Assembly (NCBI GenBank): GCA_016789705.1
Contig: JAEUQR010000001.1
Coordinates: forward strand, 1-64,000
Source of the DNA: Acidobacteriota bacterium
Lineage (GTDB): Bacteria; Acidobacteriota; Vicinamibacteria; Vicinamibacterales; UBA2999
DNA length: 64,000 bases
Reading direction: 5' to 3'
Shown: one piece after another, positions 31,941 to 38,901 of the stretch
Layout: every line of letters starts with the position of its first letter
How positions within the stretch are numbered: the first letter of the stretch is position 1
The notes under the pieces: model-generated
What the model was told of the DNA's origin: nothing
The model's input: only the letters and a program-made list of their open reading frames with translations
Database searches by the model: none
Position numbers and translations under genes: made by a program

Positions 31941-33101
31941 ATGAGCGAACAGCACTCGCGACGTGAAGTCCTCCGCGGCGGCCTGGCCGCGGCCACCGTT
32001 GGTATGCTGGGCGTACCCGAATGGGTGCTGCCCGCGCTGGCCCAGGGCGCCACCGTCGTGCCGTTCCTCGAGTTCCCGGAACAATTCAACGCCAACCCGG
32101 CACCCGACCGCCGCCTCTACGACACGCGCACGCTCGAGTCGTTCGTCACGCCGAAGGATCAGTTCTTCACGACGCAGCACTACGGGCACCCGGTGCTCGA
32201 CGAAGCCACCTTCAAGCTCTATGTCGGCGGGCTCGTGAACACGCCGAAGAGCTACACCATGGCCGAGCTGAAGAAGATGCCCAAGGGCGAGGTCATGTTC
32301 GGCTTCGAGTGTTCGGGCAACCGCGCGCCGGTGCAGGGCCTGTGCAGCAACGGCAAATGGACGGGCGTGCCGCTCGCCGCGTTGCTCAAGGCCGCTGGCC
32401 TGAAGGCGGATGGCCGCGAGGTCGTCTTCCTCGGCGCCGACCACGGCACCGAAGAGGTCGAGTGGCGCACGCAGAAGTACAGCCTCGACCAGCAGTTCGG
32501 CCGCAGCCTGCCGCGCGACAAGGCCATGTCGGCCGAGCCGCTCGTGGCCTACGCCTACAACGACGAGCCGCTCAGCCGCCATCAGGGCTTCCCGCTGCGC
32601 CTCATCGTGCCCGGCTACTACGGCGTGGCCAACGTGAAGTGGCTCTCGGAGATCCAGGTGCAGAGCGACCCCTACATGGGCAAGTACCAGGCCCGCTGGT
32701 ACCGCACCGTGCGCGGCGAGATGATCAACGGCGAGATGAAGTGGATGGAAAACGCCGTCACCGCCATGCGCCTCAAGTCGTTCGTGGCCCGCGTCACGAA
32801 GGAAGCCGGCGGCCACAAGATGGTGGGCGTCATCCTGAACGACGGCACGCCGATCAAGTCCGTGGAAGTGCAGATCGACGGCGGCGCCTGGCAGCCGGCG
32901 ACGATGGACAAGCAGAACACGAAGTACTCGTGGAAGCTCTTCCACTACGACTGGAAGGGCGCGACGCCCGGTGAACACACGATCGTGTCGCGCGCCATCG
33001 ACGTCAACGGCGTCGTGCAGCCCACCGAGAAGGAACTCGAGAATAAGAAGTCGTTCCTCGAGCACAACGCGCAGCATCCGCGGCGCGTGATGATTGCCTG
33101 A
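31941..33101 (+). CDS. Exported sulfite oxidase-like molybdenum enzyme
   Basis: A 386-residue molybdopterin oxidoreductase of the sulfite oxidase family. The N-terminus SRREVLRGGLAAATVGMLG is a twin-arginine type signal, consistent with export of a folded cofactor enzyme. The Moco domain has FGFECSGNRAPVQGLCSNG with the molybdenum-ligating Cys, VVFLGADHGTEEVEWRTQKY, and GFPLRLIVPGYYGVANVKWL. The C-terminal dimerisation domain follows (SVEVQIDGGAWQPATM). The substrate could be sulfite or another small oxo-anion. ATG 31941 follows AAAGGA. No haem subunit is in the same operon; a c-type haem protein is encoded convergently downstream. Confidence 0.85.
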   Translation: MSEQHSRREVLRGGLAAATVGMLGVPEWVLPALAQGATVVPFLEFPEQFNANPAPDRRLYDTRTLESFVTPKDQFFTTQHYGHPVLDEATFKLYVGGLVNTPKSYTMAELKKMPKGEVMFGFECSGNRAPVQGLCSNGKWTGVPLAALLKAAGLKADGREVVFLGADHGTEEVEWRTQKYSLDQQFGRSLPRDKAMSAEPLVAYAYNDEPLSRHQGFPLRLIVPGYYGVANVKWLSEIQVQSDPYMGKYQARWYRTVRGEMINGEMKWMENAVTAMRLKSFVARVTKEAGGHKMVGVILNDGTPIKSVEVQIDGGAWQPATMDKQNTKYSWKLFHYDWKGATPGEHTIVSRAIDVNGVVQPTEKELENKKSFLEHNAQHPRRVMIA

Positions 33102-33183: not shown

Positions 33184-34512
33184 TCAGCGCGCGGCGAGTG
33201 TCTGGTCGAACACGGACGGGAGATCCGACTTCGTCGCGCGCAGGATCTCGAGCGCCGCCCGGCGGTCGGCCGGCGTCAGGTGCTTGTACTTCGGCTCCGG
33301 ACGTGGCGACGACAGGAGCTGCCACAGTCGTCGATACGTCGCCTGACGCACCGCCGGCGGCATCCCGTCGAAGGCGAGCGAATAGATCGTGTAGCTGAGC
33401 GGATACCGCGCCATGCGGCCATCGAGCTTCAGATCGCGCAGCGAGCGCCCCTGTGGGTCTTTCGGGCCCTGCGCCAGGAACCATTCCGCGAAGCCGGAGT
33501 TGCCCTTCACCGTGCCGAGCGGCACTTCGTCGACATACAGCAGGTAATCGGCCAGTTCCTCGACCGCTTCGCGCACGCGCGGCATGAGCGACGGCTCCTG
33601 GGCCGGCGCCACGGGGGCGTCGGCGGAGGCCCCGGCCGCGAGGCGATGTTCCCAGCTCGCCCGGGTCATGAGGTTCATCGCGTGCAGCTGGTGTTCGAGC
33701 ACGACGAGCGCCGCGATGTCGCTCGTGGGCGTGAGGAACTCGCCGACGTCACGCACCAGGCTGGTGCCGGCCAGCGTCGTGAGCGGCACCGGCGGCGCCG
33801 TCTTCTCGGGCGGCAGCGCGTGTGCTCCGATGAGCGGCTGATTGCCCATGTGCCGCGGCGGCACCTTCGCGCCGGTCACGTACCAGCCGCCGTAGCGGCG
33901 GTCCACCGGCTCGCGGTGATCGCTCACGCCGCCATTGGCGTAGTCGTTGGTGGTGCGCCGCGGAAACGTCGTGAGCACGAACGCGCCGGGCACGGCGCGG
34001 GTGTCCCACGACAGGTGACACGACAGGCACGTCTCCATCCGCGAGGCGCGCGGCGAGGCGCTTTCGGTCTGCGACAGCTGATAGAAGACGGTGCCGAGCC
34101 TCGGGTCCTGCGCCGCCAGTTCCAGCAGCGGGGCGCCACGAATCCACGCCACCGACACGTTGTCGTTGAAGTAGATGGCGCGCGGGTTCTTCTCGGAGAT
34201 GTGCGACGCCTGCAGGCTCGTGCCGGAATAGACGAGCGTCTGCGAGCTGGCGTCCACGCCGAGGGCCGCGAGCACCGACTTCAGGTAGCCACGCCCACCG
34301 GGCTCGAAGGTGAGCGCAATCTCGCCGCGCTCGAGTCGCGCGTTCAGCTGCGCGACGACGTCTGTGGGCGCCGTGGAGCCGTACTTGATGGCGGGATGGT
34401 GCCGCGATTCCGGGAAGGCGTCGGAGCGCTGGCGGGCCACGGCCGTAGCCCCCAGCCAGAGCGCCACGAAGGCAAGAGCAAGCGGAACGAAGGGCGCGCG
34501 TCGCATCGTCAT
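33184..34512 (-). CDS. Exported protein with one c-type haem motif
   Basis: A 442-residue protein with an N-terminal signal (RRAPFVPLALAFVALWLGAT ... AVARQ). It has a single CLSCH (CxxCH) haem-attachment motif near residue 165, within RMETCLSCHLSWDTRAVPG. HLLL-type helices and VLEHQLHAMNLMTRASWEH later could supply a Met or His ligand. The overall family is unknown to me; similar large mono-haem proteins occur in acidobacterial and planctomycete genomes. It ends the run of same-strand genes 37876-33184 and is convergent with the sulfite-oxidase-like gene. Confidence 0.6.
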   Translation of the reverse strand: MTMRRAPFVPLALAFVALWLGATAVARQRSDAFPESRHHPAIKYGSTAPTDVVAQLNARLERGEIALTFEPGGRGYLKSVLAALGVDASSQTLVYSGTSLQASHISEKNPRAIYFNDNVSVAWIRGAPLLELAAQDPRLGTVFYQLSQTESASPRASRMETCLSCHLSWDTRAVPGAFVLTTFPRRTTNDYANGGVSDHREPVDRRYGGWYVTGAKVPPRHMGNQPLIGAHALPPEKTAPPVPLTTLAGTSLVRDVGEFLTPTSDIAALVVLEHQLHAMNLMTRASWEHRLAAGASADAPVAPAQEPSLMPRVREAVEELADYLLYVDEVPLGTVKGNSGFAEWFLAQGPKDPQGRSLRDLKLDGRMARYPLSYTIYSLAFDGMPPAVRQATYRRLWQLLSSPRPEPKYKHLTPADRRAALEILRATKSDLPSVFDQTLAAR

Positions 34513-34655: not shown

Positions 34656-35486
34656 CTACAGCGGATTGTCCGGGAACATCATCGTGCGCCACATGTGCGC
34701 GGTCGGGCTGTTGTCGTTGCCGAGCCCTTCCTTCGGCTGCTTGAACTGCCGGCCGATGATGTCGATGAACGGATCGATCGACACCTTGGCGTTCGGATCG
34801 AACGCATAGAGGTCGTTCACCGTGATCATGCGCGCCTCGAAGTACCACTTGTGCTTGCGGGCGAACTCGTAGGCGGCCTTGATGTGCGGCTGCGGCTCGT
34901 AGTCCTTGCCGTAGATGCGGTTGTAGAGCTCGGGGTATTCGTAGCCGTGCGCCGGGTCGGGATAGAAGCGCAACGCCTGGTGATACCGGATCGCCCAGCT
35001 GACCTTCTCCGTGACGTAGGGCTCGAGCATCTGCGCGCCCCACCACGCGTGATCCACCTTGACCAGGTTCTGCACGACGTCGTGCAGCAGGCAGGCCATC
35101 ACGATTTCTTCGCTCATGCCCGTCTTCATGGCCCGCGTGGCGCTCTGCAGCACGTGGTTGGCCGGCGCGAAGCGTTTCTCGAAGAACTCGAGCAGCGTCG
35201 GGTTGTTCGACATCGGCGCAAGCTTCGGCATCTTGCGGGCGTCGGCCGGGCCGCTCGGCGCAAACAGGCTGCCCACGCCGCGGCGCACGGTGGCCTCTTC
35301 GGGCGAGGGCAGCACCTGCGCGTTGGCCAGTTCGACGTGGCCGCCCATGGCCTCGTCGATCTTCTCGACCATGTAATGTTCGAGCGCTTCGGCCTTCGTC
35401 TCCGAATCCATCGCGTCCACGACGGCCATGCCGCCGAGGCTGGCGATGAACGCGCGACGATCGATCTCCATATTGCCCATGCCCAT
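34656..35486 (-). CDS. HD-domain protein with Tat-like N-terminus
   Basis: A 276-residue protein. CLLHDVVQNLVKVDHAWWG holds an HD pair and a second His, and WAIRYHQALRFYPDPAHGYE continues the helical metal-binding core, as in HD hydrolases and HD-type oxygenases. I cannot tell which reaction it performs. The N-terminus EIDRRAFIASLGGMAVVDAM looks like a twin-arginine signal, unusual for HD proteins. ATG 35486 follows AAGGAGG at 8 nt. It lies 36 bp after the second aminotransferase gene in the same direction, so a shared pathway is likely. Confidence 0.6.
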   Translation of the reverse strand: MGMGNMEIDRRAFIASLGGMAVVDAMDSETKAEALEHYMVEKIDEAMGGHVELANAQVLPSPEEATVRRGVGSLFAPSGPADARKMPKLAPMSNNPTLLEFFEKRFAPANHVLQSATRAMKTGMSEEIVMACLLHDVVQNLVKVDHAWWGAQMLEPYVTEKVSWAIRYHQALRFYPDPAHGYEYPELYNRIYGKDYEPQPHIKAAYEFARKHKWYFEARMITVNDLYAFDPNAKVSIDPFIDIIGRQFKQPKEGLGNDNSPTAHMWRTMMFPDNPL

Positions 35487-35522: not shown

Positions 35523-36677
35523 CTAGGCGGCGGTCGCCTTCGCCGGCGCGGCAAGCGCCTTGTCGAATACCTTCACGGCGCGCTGCATCTCGGCCATGGT
35601 GCCGACCGAGATGCGCGCGTGGGTCTGGTCGTACGGGGGAAAGTCGCGCCCGATGAGCACGCCGTCTCTCGCGCAGGCCTCACGGAAGCCCTTCGATGGA
35701 CGCTTGATGTCGATGAAGAGGAAGTTGGTCTGCGAATCCGTGGGCGTGAAGCCGCGCTCGCTGAACCACTTCGCGGTGAAGGCGCGGGCCTCGGCATTGC
35801 GCCGCTGCTCGGCCGCCACCCACGACGCCGGCACGGCCAGCGCCGCCTTCGCGCCCTGCAGGGCCATGATGCTGATGGCGTCGATCGAGTCCCACGCCTC
35901 CATCTTCGCGATCGTGTCCTTGTGGCCGATCGCGTAGCCGATACGCAGGCCGGCCATGCCGAAGCACTTCGAAAAGGTGCGCGCCACGACCACGCGCGGG
36001 TTCTCGACGGCGAGCGGGATCATCGTCTCGTAGCCGGGCATCGTGGCGTACTCGAAGTACGCCTCGTCCACGAGCACCGTGGTGTTGGGCGACTGCTTGA
36101 GCAGCGTCGAGAGGTAGGCGCGCGTGTCGGCGCCGTTCACGGCCGTGCCCACGGGATTGTTGGGATTGCAGAAGAACACGAGACCGGCGCCCCGCGACGC
36201 CGTCTGCAACGCGTCGAGATCCATCTTGAGCGACGCATCGAGCTTCACGCCGGTGACCGGGTGGCCGATGAGCTTCGCATACGAGGCACATTCTTCGTAG
36301 GCGGGAATCGCCGCCACGAGTCCCGAGGTCTTCGACGTGAACACCTCGGTGCAGGTGCGGAGGATCTGCGTCGAGCCCGAGCCGAGCAGGACGTTCTCGC
36401 GCTTCACGTTGTGGCGTCGCGCGACCAGTTCCGAGACCTCGTCAGCGGCGGCAAACGCGTAGCGACCGGCCGCCGGCATGCTGCCGGTGACGGCGGCGAG
36501 CACGTCGGGGTGGCAGCCGAGCGGGTTTTCGTTGCTCGAGAGCAGGAGCGGCTTCGCCCCCTGCGCGAAGAGTGTCTCGCCCCCGAGGAATGCCCCCTCG
36601 CGGCCGCGGCCGCTGATGGCGAGGCCGGCGGCTCCGGCGCCCAGCGTGTGAACGAAAGCTCGGCGCGAAAACGACAT
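35523..36677 (-). CDS. Exported HisC-like aminotransferase (second of a tandem pair)
   Basis: A 384-residue fold-type I PLP enzyme of the histidinol-phosphate aminotransferase group. A twin-arginine type signal (SFSRRAFVHTLGAGAAGLAI) precedes LLLSSNENPLG (substrate-binding), VFFCNPNNPVGT, LVDEAYFEYA with the PLP Asp/Tyr, and VVARTFSKCFGMAGLRIGYA with the Schiff-base Lys. Cytoplasmic HisC enzymes lack signals, so the fully folded holo-enzyme would be exported by Tat. ATG 36677 follows GAAAGGA. It shares the layout of the upstream gene and several identical blocks (VFFCNPNNP, FLFxDIKRPxKGFR), so the pair arose by duplication. Confidence 0.85.
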   Translation of the reverse strand: MSFSRRAFVHTLGAGAAGLAISGRGREGAFLGGETLFAQGAKPLLLSSNENPLGCHPDVLAAVTGSMPAAGRYAFAAADEVSELVARRHNVKRENVLLGSGSTQILRTCTEVFTSKTSGLVAAIPAYEECASYAKLIGHPVTGVKLDASLKMDLDALQTASRGAGLVFFCNPNNPVGTAVNGADTRAYLSTLLKQSPNTTVLVDEAYFEYATMPGYETMIPLAVENPRVVVARTFSKCFGMAGLRIGYAIGHKDTIAKMEAWDSIDAISIMALQGAKAALAVPASWVAAEQRRNAEARAFTAKWFSERGFTPTDSQTNFLFIDIKRPSKGFREACARDGVLIGRDFPPYDQTHARISVGTMAEMQRAVKVFDKALAAPAKATAA

Positions 36678-36706
36678 GGCAGGTCCTTTCGTGGCACGCG
36701 GCATGA

Positions 36707-37876
36707 CTACCGCCCTCCCTGGCGCGACGTCGTCGGCGCGCCGGCAAGGGCGGTGCGGAAGACCGCCACCGCCTTCTGCATCTCGTCCATCGTGCCGACC
36801 GAGATGCGGCAGTACTGCTGCTCGAACGGCGGAAAGTCGCGGCCCACGAGTACGCCGGCAGCGCGGCAGGCGTCGCGGAAGCCCTTCGCCGGGCGCTTGA
36901 TGTCCATGAAGAGGAAGTTGGCCTGCGAGGCGGTGCCGCTCAGCCCCATGTCGGCAAACGCCTTCACGGTGAAGGCGCGCACCTCGGTGTTCCTGGCGCG
37001 TTCGGCATCGATGTGGGCGGTATTCGCGATGGACGCCATGGCGGCTGCCAGCGTGAGCGTGCCGAGTCCGTTCGGCATCTTGTAGGCGGCGAGCGCCGAG
37101 ATCACGCGGGCATCGCCCACGGCGTAACCGGCACGCAGGCCGGCCATGCCGTGCGCCTTCGAGAACGTGCGGGCCACGAAGACGTTCGGCGTCGAGACGG
37201 CCAGCGGCATCGCCGTGGCGTAGGCGGGGTCGGTCACGTAGTCGTGGTACGCCTCGTCGAGCAGGATGACGGTGTCAGGCGACGCGGCGCGGATCGCCTT
37301 CACGGTGTCGGCCACGGCCGTCTTGCCGTGCACGGTGGCCGTCGGGTTGTTCGGATTGCAGAAGAACACGAGACCCGCGCCCTTCGAGGCCTCGACCAGC
37401 TTGTCGAGGTCGATGCGCAGCGCGCTGTCGAACCCCACCTCGCGCACCGGGGTGCCGATCTTCTTCGCCGTGTCGCGCGGCGCCTCGAACGACGGCCAGG
37501 CCGTGACGAGCGGACGGCTTGTCGAGGTGAAGGCGCGCACCGCGTTCGTGAGCAGTTCGCCGGAGCCGGCGCCGAGCGTGACCTGCTCGTCGCGGGCGCC
37601 GAACTTCTTCGCCAGCACGCCGACGAGTGACGCCTCGCGATCGGTGGCATTGCCGGGATACAGCGACGCCTCCGGGTAGCGGGCGGCGATGGCGGCCACG
37701 ACGTGCGCGCCGGGCCCGAGCGGATTTTCGTTGCTCGAGATGCGGATGAGCGCGGCGGCGGCCTGCGCCTCGACGTCGCCGGCGCGGGCGGCCTCACGTC
37801 CCCGGGCGGCAATCCATGCGTGGCCCGGGTCGGGCGCGAACGGCCCGGTCAGGAGCCGACGGCGTGTCAGCGACAT
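36707..37876 (-). CDS. Exported HisC-like aminotransferase (first of a tandem pair)
   Basis: A 389-residue paralogue of the downstream gene. The N-terminus MSLTRRRLLTGPFAPDPGHA has the twin arginines but a weaker hydrophobic stretch. It contains ISSNENPLGPGAHVVAAIAA, VTLGAGSGELLTNAVRAF, LLDEAYHDYVTDP and VARTFSKAHGMAGLRAGYAV with the catalytic Lys. ATG 37876 follows GGGAGA. It is first in a same-strand run (paralogue, HD protein, mono-haem protein). The substrate is unknown; transamination or a related PLP reaction in the periplasm is inferred. Confidence 0.82.
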   Translation of the reverse strand: MSLTRRRLLTGPFAPDPGHAWIAARGREAARAGDVEAQAAAALIRISSNENPLGPGAHVVAAIAARYPEASLYPGNATDREASLVGVLAKKFGARDEQVTLGAGSGELLTNAVRAFTSTSRPLVTAWPSFEAPRDTAKKIGTPVREVGFDSALRIDLDKLVEASKGAGLVFFCNPNNPTATVHGKTAVADTVKAIRAASPDTVILLDEAYHDYVTDPAYATAMPLAVSTPNVFVARTFSKAHGMAGLRAGYAVGDARVISALAAYKMPNGLGTLTLAAAMASIANTAHIDAERARNTEVRAFTVKAFADMGLSGTASQANFLFMDIKRPAKGFRDACRAAGVLVGRDFPPFEQQYCRISVGTMDEMQKAVAVFRTALAGAPTTSRQGGR

Positions 37877-38004: not shown

Positions 38005-38901
38005 TCAGGGCTTTTCGGCGGCGACGATCGCCATCCAGCGGCCATCCGGCGACACCGCCAGCCGCGACAGCGTGCCGATCTCGGGCGTCGAGAGCAGTGT
38101 CCAGCCGCTCTGCCCCGGTCGCCACCAGTGGATCTCGCTGGCCGTGGTCATGAAAAGGGTGCCATCGGGCGCCCAGGCGGCATCACGATCGGCGCTGCCT
38201 TCGAGCGCCGGCACGAGGTCGCGGATCTCGCCGCTCGCCGGCACCCACTCTTTCACGCGCCACACGCCCTGCTCACGCTGCACGAACGAAATCGTGCCGC
38301 CGGGCCGGCGCAGCAGCGAGCGGCCGATGTCGCGCGCGACCACGGTCGCCTTCCCCGACGTGACGTCGACGATCTGCAGGGTCGACGGCTGGCCCAGCAC
38401 GTACGCGGCGAGCCGGCTGGCGTCGATCCACGCGTGGTAGCCGGCCGGTTTCACCGTCGGCGCGATGACCGCGGGCGCCGTGCCGCCTTCGCCCATGCGC
38501 CACACACGCTGCGTGCCGTCGGCTTCGACGCGGATGACCGACACGCCGGCGTCGTCGGGCATGAGCGTGGGCGAATACTCCGACTCGGGCGTGGCGGTGA
38601 ATTGCCGGATCTGCCGCGTCTGCAGTTCGAGGAAATAGATGTCGGTCTGCTTGCCGTCGCGGTTCGACGTGAACAGCATGGCGCGGCCATCCGGTCCGAA
38701 GAACGGCTGGTTGTCGTAGCCCTTCGGGTTCTCCGAGGCGACGCGCGCCGGCCCCATCGTGGGCGCCGACGCCAGCAGGCGCATCGGCGCAAGAAAGATG
38801 TCGGTGGCAGGCGGCATGGCCGGCGCGGGCTGCGCGGCGGCGGGGGCGGCCACGCCGAGTCCCGCGGCCAGGAGGGCGACGACGAACGCCGGATGTGTCA
38901 T
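38005..38901 (-). CDS. Exported TolB-like beta-propeller protein
   Basis: A 298-residue protein with a signal peptide (HPAFVVALLAAGLGVAAPAA) and repeated PD40/WD40-like strands: QPFFGPDGRAMLFTSNRDGK, EYSPTLMPDDAGVSVIRVEA, RDAAWAPDGTLFMTTASEI and LSRLAVSPDGRWMAIVAAE. These resemble the TolB propeller, but Pal/Tol partners are not nearby. The function is probably binding or lytic. It is divergent from the TauE-type transporter with only 22 bp between starts; TATAGT 6 nt before its ATG supports the start. Confidence 0.75.
   Translation of the reverse strand: MTHPAFVVALLAAGLGVAAPAAAQPAPAMPPATDIFLAPMRLLASAPTMGPARVASENPKGYDNQPFFGPDGRAMLFTSNRDGKQTDIYFLELQTRQIRQFTATPESEYSPTLMPDDAGVSVIRVEADGTQRVWRMGEGGTAPAVIAPTVKPAGYHAWIDASRLAAYVLGQPSTLQIVDVTSGKATVVARDIGRSLLRRPGGTISFVQREQGVWRVKEWVPASGEIRDLVPALEGSADRDAAWAPDGTLFMTTASEIHWWRPGQSGWTLLSTPEIGTLSRLAVSPDGRWMAIVAAEKP

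Follow-up and report, generated by a model that had tools for sequence, protein, structure and literature searches.

The conserved unit in this stretch of DNA is a tandem of two paralogous PLP aminotransferases, AT1 and AT2, which recurs across the Acidobacteriota and whose N-termini are unequal by hydropathy, with a complete Tat-type signal in AT2 and a twin arginine (RR) without the hydrophobic core in AT1. The best explanation, to which we give a probability of about 0.4 from the sequences and models at hand, is that the two proteins would form a heterodimer exported through Tat on the signal of AT2.

The window, that is, the whole analysed stretch of 64,000 nucleotides, corresponds to contig C49 in a genome of 5.0 Mb (G000), and its named relatives are Acidobacteria MAGs. 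Five genes lie on the minus strand in the same direction: a PD40 beta-propeller protein (38005..38901), which is upstream of AT1 and a neighbour within the genus, AT1 (36707..37876), AT2 (35523..36677), an HD-domain protein (34656..35486) and a mono-haem protein with one CXXCH (33184..34512), separated by gaps of 128, 29, 36 and 143 bp, respectively. A molybdenum sulfite-oxidase-like gene (31941-33101) faces this run. The first-pass annotation had described two paralogous PLP aminotransferases in one directional run with the HD and mono-haem proteins, with an RR in the N-terminus of the former and an ordinary Sec-like N-terminus in the latter, and the inspection of the sequence bore this out. 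AT1 and AT2 are probably co-transcribed; a scan for promoters and terminators returned no signal exceeding that of shuffled sequences.

AT1 and AT2 are 47% identical over 376 residues and both match Pfam Aminotran_1_2. PRK09105 (NF006580) is the top NCBIfam match for both proteins (249 and 273 bits), below its curated cut-off of 444 bits, and the title of this model gives no substrate. The HisC model TIGR01141 (cut-off 276.55 bits) was likewise not reached (214 and 218 bits). The AlphaFold model of AT1, built from 54 rows (pLDDT 89.1), superposes on PDB 3ly1, a putative HisC from Erwinia carotovora, with TM values of 0.80/0.88 and 32% identity. S239, K240, D207, Y210, N176, R248, R346 and R357 are conserved in 54/54 aligned members; among them, K240, D207, Y210, N176, R248 and R357 correspond to what we take to be the catalytic Lys, Asp, Tyr, Asn and Arg set of fold-type I PLP aminotransferases, and the PLP and carboxylate-binding residues are all intact in these rows. 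The pair thus resembles HisC in fold and catalytic residues but differs from it in the RR N-termini and in that the genome of the window holds another, signal-less HisC-like gene (C85) adjoining an ORF that, from its sequence, we presume to be hisD. The idea that AT1 is the missing biosynthetic HisC is therefore unlikely; the C85 gene itself scores just 214 bits on TIGR01141. The same genome encodes two further Tat-type HisC-like genes (C125 and C161), the second adjoined by an RR-bearing ORF (L004:489-1289) that we assume to be related to peptidase E/cyanophycinase. In plasmid records no close relative was found (best 37%).

The AT1-AT2 pair is present in 14 of the 43 genomes of the family and in 14 of a sample of 396 genomes of the phylum, in which up to four candidates per genome with E up to 1e-50 were scored; as 4 genomes are common to both sets, 24 distinct genomes carry the pair. 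AT1 is upstream of AT2 on the same strand in all 24, and the gap between them, measured in 23 of these pairs, has a median of 29 bp (-7 to 142). Other families of the phylum also retain the pair, with proteins ~42-59% identical to those of the window, so it is more than a chance association. Among the genomes searched there is a single match for AT2 without AT1 (G080:C56), which starts right at the edge of a contig. The 22 AT2 rows form one clade (support 100/95) in a tree of 62 rows; opposite them stand the 24 AT1 rows with 11 single-copy or duplicated paralogues among them, so that AT1 is not one clade; the tandem copies of G041 and G277:C20 belong to this AT1-side paralogue type and were excluded from the pair count. 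One joint function is favoured by the gene order and spacing, by the ancestry of the two proteins and by AT2 being almost never seen on its own, although a conserved AT1-AT2 operon would be equally expected of two homodimers.

The first-pass annotation had assigned Tat-type N-termini to both aminotransferases, and the RR is indeed present in both, as in the HD protein, but by hydropathy only AT2 has the complete signal, and hydropathy together with charge speaks against reading the AT1 N-terminus as one. The N-terminus of AT2, MSFSRRAFVHTLGAGAAGLAISGRGREG, is of Tat type, with RR and hydrophobic core at residues 5-22 (36612..36665, minus strand), whereas that of AT1, MSLTRRRLLTGPFAPDPGHAWIAARGREA, has the RR at residues 5-6 (37859..37864, minus strand) and lacks the core, the sequence following its RRR being LLTGPFAPDPGHAWIAARGREA. 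Signals were judged by the best 12-residue hydropathy between the RR and an RGxE motif, which in the window is 0.27 for AT1 vs 1.41 for AT2. Across 14 AT1 and 13 AT2 family rows (the AT2 of G411 was omitted because of an assembly gap), the medians are 0.18 (-0.51 to 1.17, the upper value reached by G415) and 1.28 (1.05 to 1.42), respectively (p 2e-5), with 2-6 charges in AT1 vs 0-1 in AT2. Ranked among 3970 20-residue windows of mature protein, the family AT1 stretch has a median at the 28th percentile and that of AT2 at the 92nd. Family members were expected to keep the signals, and for AT1 the earlier claim fails on this point: the core is weak or absent in all 14 genomes of the family that carry the pair, and at least one acidic residue falls within the 20 residues after the RR in 14/14 AT1 vs 2/13 AT2. 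Outside the family (10 + 10 rows) AT1 and AT2 differ less (0.97 for AT1 vs 1.38 for AT2, p 0.007), the charges do not differ (p 0.41) and passable AT1 cores occur (G080 1.57, G341 1.43, G151 1.17). The RR is found in 24/24 AT1 rows, a count that is partly so by construction since start codons were selected close to an RR. Rows were omitted from the signal comparison because of the SNEN pattern, because of an assembly gap or, as with G080b, whose frame starts past the RR position, because of a contig edge; none with a full N-terminus was omitted for lacking the RR. A missed upstream start of AT1 was discarded: extension of the window frame to the next stop adds no hydrophobic stretch, and in G411 just 8 codons precede the start.

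The genome of the window also encodes TatC which, together with the Tat-type signal, makes a folded, PLP-loaded AT2 in the periplasm likely. We consider the export of AT2 very probable, so the proposed export of folded, cofactor-bearing enzymes holds as a likely prediction for AT2, but AT1 appears to have no complete signal of its own.

The AT1 N-terminus carries a second conserved element. R-G-x-E occurs in 24/24 AT1 rows, with R, G and E invariant, and in the window it reads RGREA (residues 25-29; 37790..37804, minus strand). Residues 1-11 and 13-38 of the AT1 model have pLDDT under 50, so this motif is conserved outside the confident fold and was rejected as a piece of the folded core. Several synonymous codon forms for RR and RGREA are used in family AT1 genes, and AT2 keeps RGRE in 18/23.

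Regarding the genes around the pair, the HD gene directly follows AT2 in 7/14 family genomes (G000, G191, G399, G400, G401, G421, G411), while in G385 the two are on separate contigs and in G409 an HD fragment precedes a permease on another contig. The mono-haem gene comes next in 4/14 (G000, G191, G400, G401), all within the genus. In 8/24 loci the pair is accompanied by an APC amino-acid permease, an Amidohydro_2 protein and a small cupin whose match falls under Pfam's cut-off (G421, G422, G423, G396, G285, G411 and, in another taxonomic family, G253 and G277), and a Tat-type alanine racemase lies on the contig of the pair in G285, G396, G422 and G421. One racemase near the pair (L111:5961-7202), with a Tat-like N-terminus, scores 215 bits on TIGR00492 (cut-off 168). 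In the genome of the window, the best permease relative (57%) is away from the pair, on C17, and the search for a racemase gave nothing closer than 29%. All these neighbour counts are lower bounds because several pair loci lie on short contigs. With a permease, an amidohydrolase, a cupin and a racemase nearby, the pair may serve the use of external amino acids.

The HD protein has an RR and hydrophobic N-terminus and, like AT2, looks like a Tat substrate. Its six putative metal ligands (H111, H135, D136, H146, H169, D225) are invariant in 27/27 relatives and form the H...HD...H...H...D set of HD-domain diiron oxygenases, a set that also occurs in dinuclear HD hydrolases. Its model (pLDDT 81.5) is closest to TmpB (Z 11.5, 3.6 Å, 149 residues), PhnZ (Z 11.4, 3.1 Å, 141 residues) and MIOX (Z 7.9, 4.8 Å, 169 residues), with a best Z of 6.5 for any other fold. 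The likeness to these three enzymes thus lies in the fold and the ligand set, but the YxxE substrate loop of PhnZ and TmpB, which is absent in MIOX as well, is not kept in the HD relatives, where the position of PhnZ E27 is Lys, Leu or another residue. The protein also has an invariant Arg (R105) before its first His ligand, as HD phosphatases have according to an excerpt of PMC8177086, and this Arg and the missing loop make a hydrolase possible, so that the protein may be one.

A further difference from PhnZ, TmpB and MIOX is the RR plus hydrophobic N-terminus, present in 27/30 HD relatives once six of the 36 loci (duplicates, near-copies and cut-off copies) are excluded. The exceptions are L074, which lacks this N-terminus at the chosen start, and two mycobacterial relatives that read REDVIASLGG, so that here too the signal is not kept throughout, with RE in place of RR. 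These homologues, from Mycobacterium angelicum and M. szulgai (~61% identity; L052:632-1438 and L053:8007-8813), retain the family pattern of the N-terminus otherwise, as after transfer with loss of export. In other Acidobacteriota the gene just downstream of the HD homologue often encodes a small exported protein that has a DCPPG motif (L047, L048, L050, L061, L076), and the two genes may form their own unit. In a second taxonomic family a large ORF recurs near the HD gene (L076:5789-7687, with a Tat-like N-terminus, L070, L071 and L072); by its appearance we presume it to be a TPP enzyme. As for the mono-haem protein, no Pfam or PDB match was found, and members of its family, often in multiple copies, are present in 12 of the 199 genomes sampled from the phylum.

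Aminotransferases of fold-type I are dimers whose active sites lie where the subunits meet, so two paralogues that are synthesised together can pair. We propose that AT1 and AT2 derive from an old duplication and were kept in tandem because they act as one enzyme. The AT1-AT2 heterodimer would fold with PLP in the cytoplasm, AT2 would provide the complete Tat signal, and AT1, with its RR and RGREA tail but no core, would hitchhike on it; a complete signal in one partner and an incomplete one in the other fit this kind of export. In the periplasm the pair would transaminate an amino acid or a small anionic amine, and the product would then be taken up or degraded by the permease, amidohydrolase and cupin encoded alongside in relatives. 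That AT1 also ends up in the periplasm seems reasonably probable to us; that it arrives there by hitchhiking in a heterodimer is more tentative. More doubtful still is the fullest version, in which an obligate heterodimeric Tat-exported aminotransferase with unequal signals would be the heart of an Acidobacteriota amino-acid salvage unit with the permease, the amidohydrolase, the cupin and the exported racemase.

The main rival to the exported heterodimer, somewhat unlikely in our view, places an AT1 homodimer in the cytoplasm and AT2 in the periplasm, with the same amino-group exchange on either side of the membrane linked by the permease. The weak or absent core in the 14 family genomes and the APC permease in 8/24 loci agree with it, but a cytoplasmic enzyme would not be expected to conserve RR and RGxE in 24/24 rows in a tail outside the confident fold, and the genome already has the signal-less C85 gene by the hisD-like ORF. 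An unlikely arrangement is the separate export of both enzymes as homodimers, with AT1 relying on its own weak yet functional Tat signal, as the RR in 24/24 and the acceptable cores of G080, G341 and G151 outside the family could indicate; the acidic residue after the RR in every family AT1, and a stretch there no more hydrophobic than mature protein, speak against it. The weakest core being found in the family of the window could also reflect a decaying signal in an AT1 that is losing function, but this is very improbable given its intact PLP and carboxylate-binding residues in 54/54 rows, its retention by AT2 in every pair and the synonymous variation of its RR and RGREA codons.

The first-pass annotation had joined the pair with the HD and mono-haem proteins in a periplasmic pathway. 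Such a functional partnership in one oxidative amino-group pathway draws on the HD gene following AT2 in half of the family genomes with the pair and on its fold near the HD diiron oxygenases, but HD relatives occur in 31/396 genomes, some by weak matches only, mostly with no pair nearby, and G385 has the two on separate contigs; the mono-haem gene adjoins the pair within the genus alone, and its family occurs in 12/199 genomes generally. We therefore regard this partnership as quite improbable, and the neighbourhood counts reject the two proteins as general partners of the pair.

The same annotation had considered this periplasmic amino-group chemistry to be outside the known kinds, but periplasmic transamination has a precedent: according to an excerpt of PMC6206403, PtaA of pseudomonads is a Tat-exported transaminase that has PLP bound at export and acts in the periplasm. 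The PtaA profile (NF051461) aligns to AT1 and AT2 from residue 2 onward, with 235 and 245 bits under a cut-off of 500. The likeness to PtaA lies in the HisC-like PLP transaminase itself and in its predicted Tat export together with the cofactor; judged by hydropathy, a complete signal is seen in AT2 and not in AT1. However, PtaA is a single enzyme acting on the Glu of pyoverdine and AT1-AT2 a tandem pair with one member lacking the hydrophobic core. For hydrogenases and formate dehydrogenases it is established that subunits lacking a signal hitchhike through Tat (PMC10924467, in part), and PaoABC is described as a hitchhiker complex in a portion of PMC4273604. These complexes resemble the proposed heterodimer in having the signal on one subunit and a partner without it, but here both partners share one PLP fold as paralogues, and the hitchhikers covered in the excerpt of PMC10924467 have no signal at all whereas AT1 retains the RR. 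In the literature, covered mostly at the level of titles and the beginnings of abstracts, we found no description of a Tat aminotransferase pair in Acidobacteriota.

The side-by-side genes, with the full tag on AT2 and half of it on AT1, suggest a joint exit from the cell interior. Since periplasmic transamination is known from the pseudomonad PtaA, a pair spread through a phylum would show periplasmic PLP chemistry to be more general, and it raises the question of what happens to PLP and to the amino acceptor outside the cytoplasm. The unequal N-termini of AT1 and AT2 are also a natural test of which portion of a Tat signal is needed by a partner subunit.
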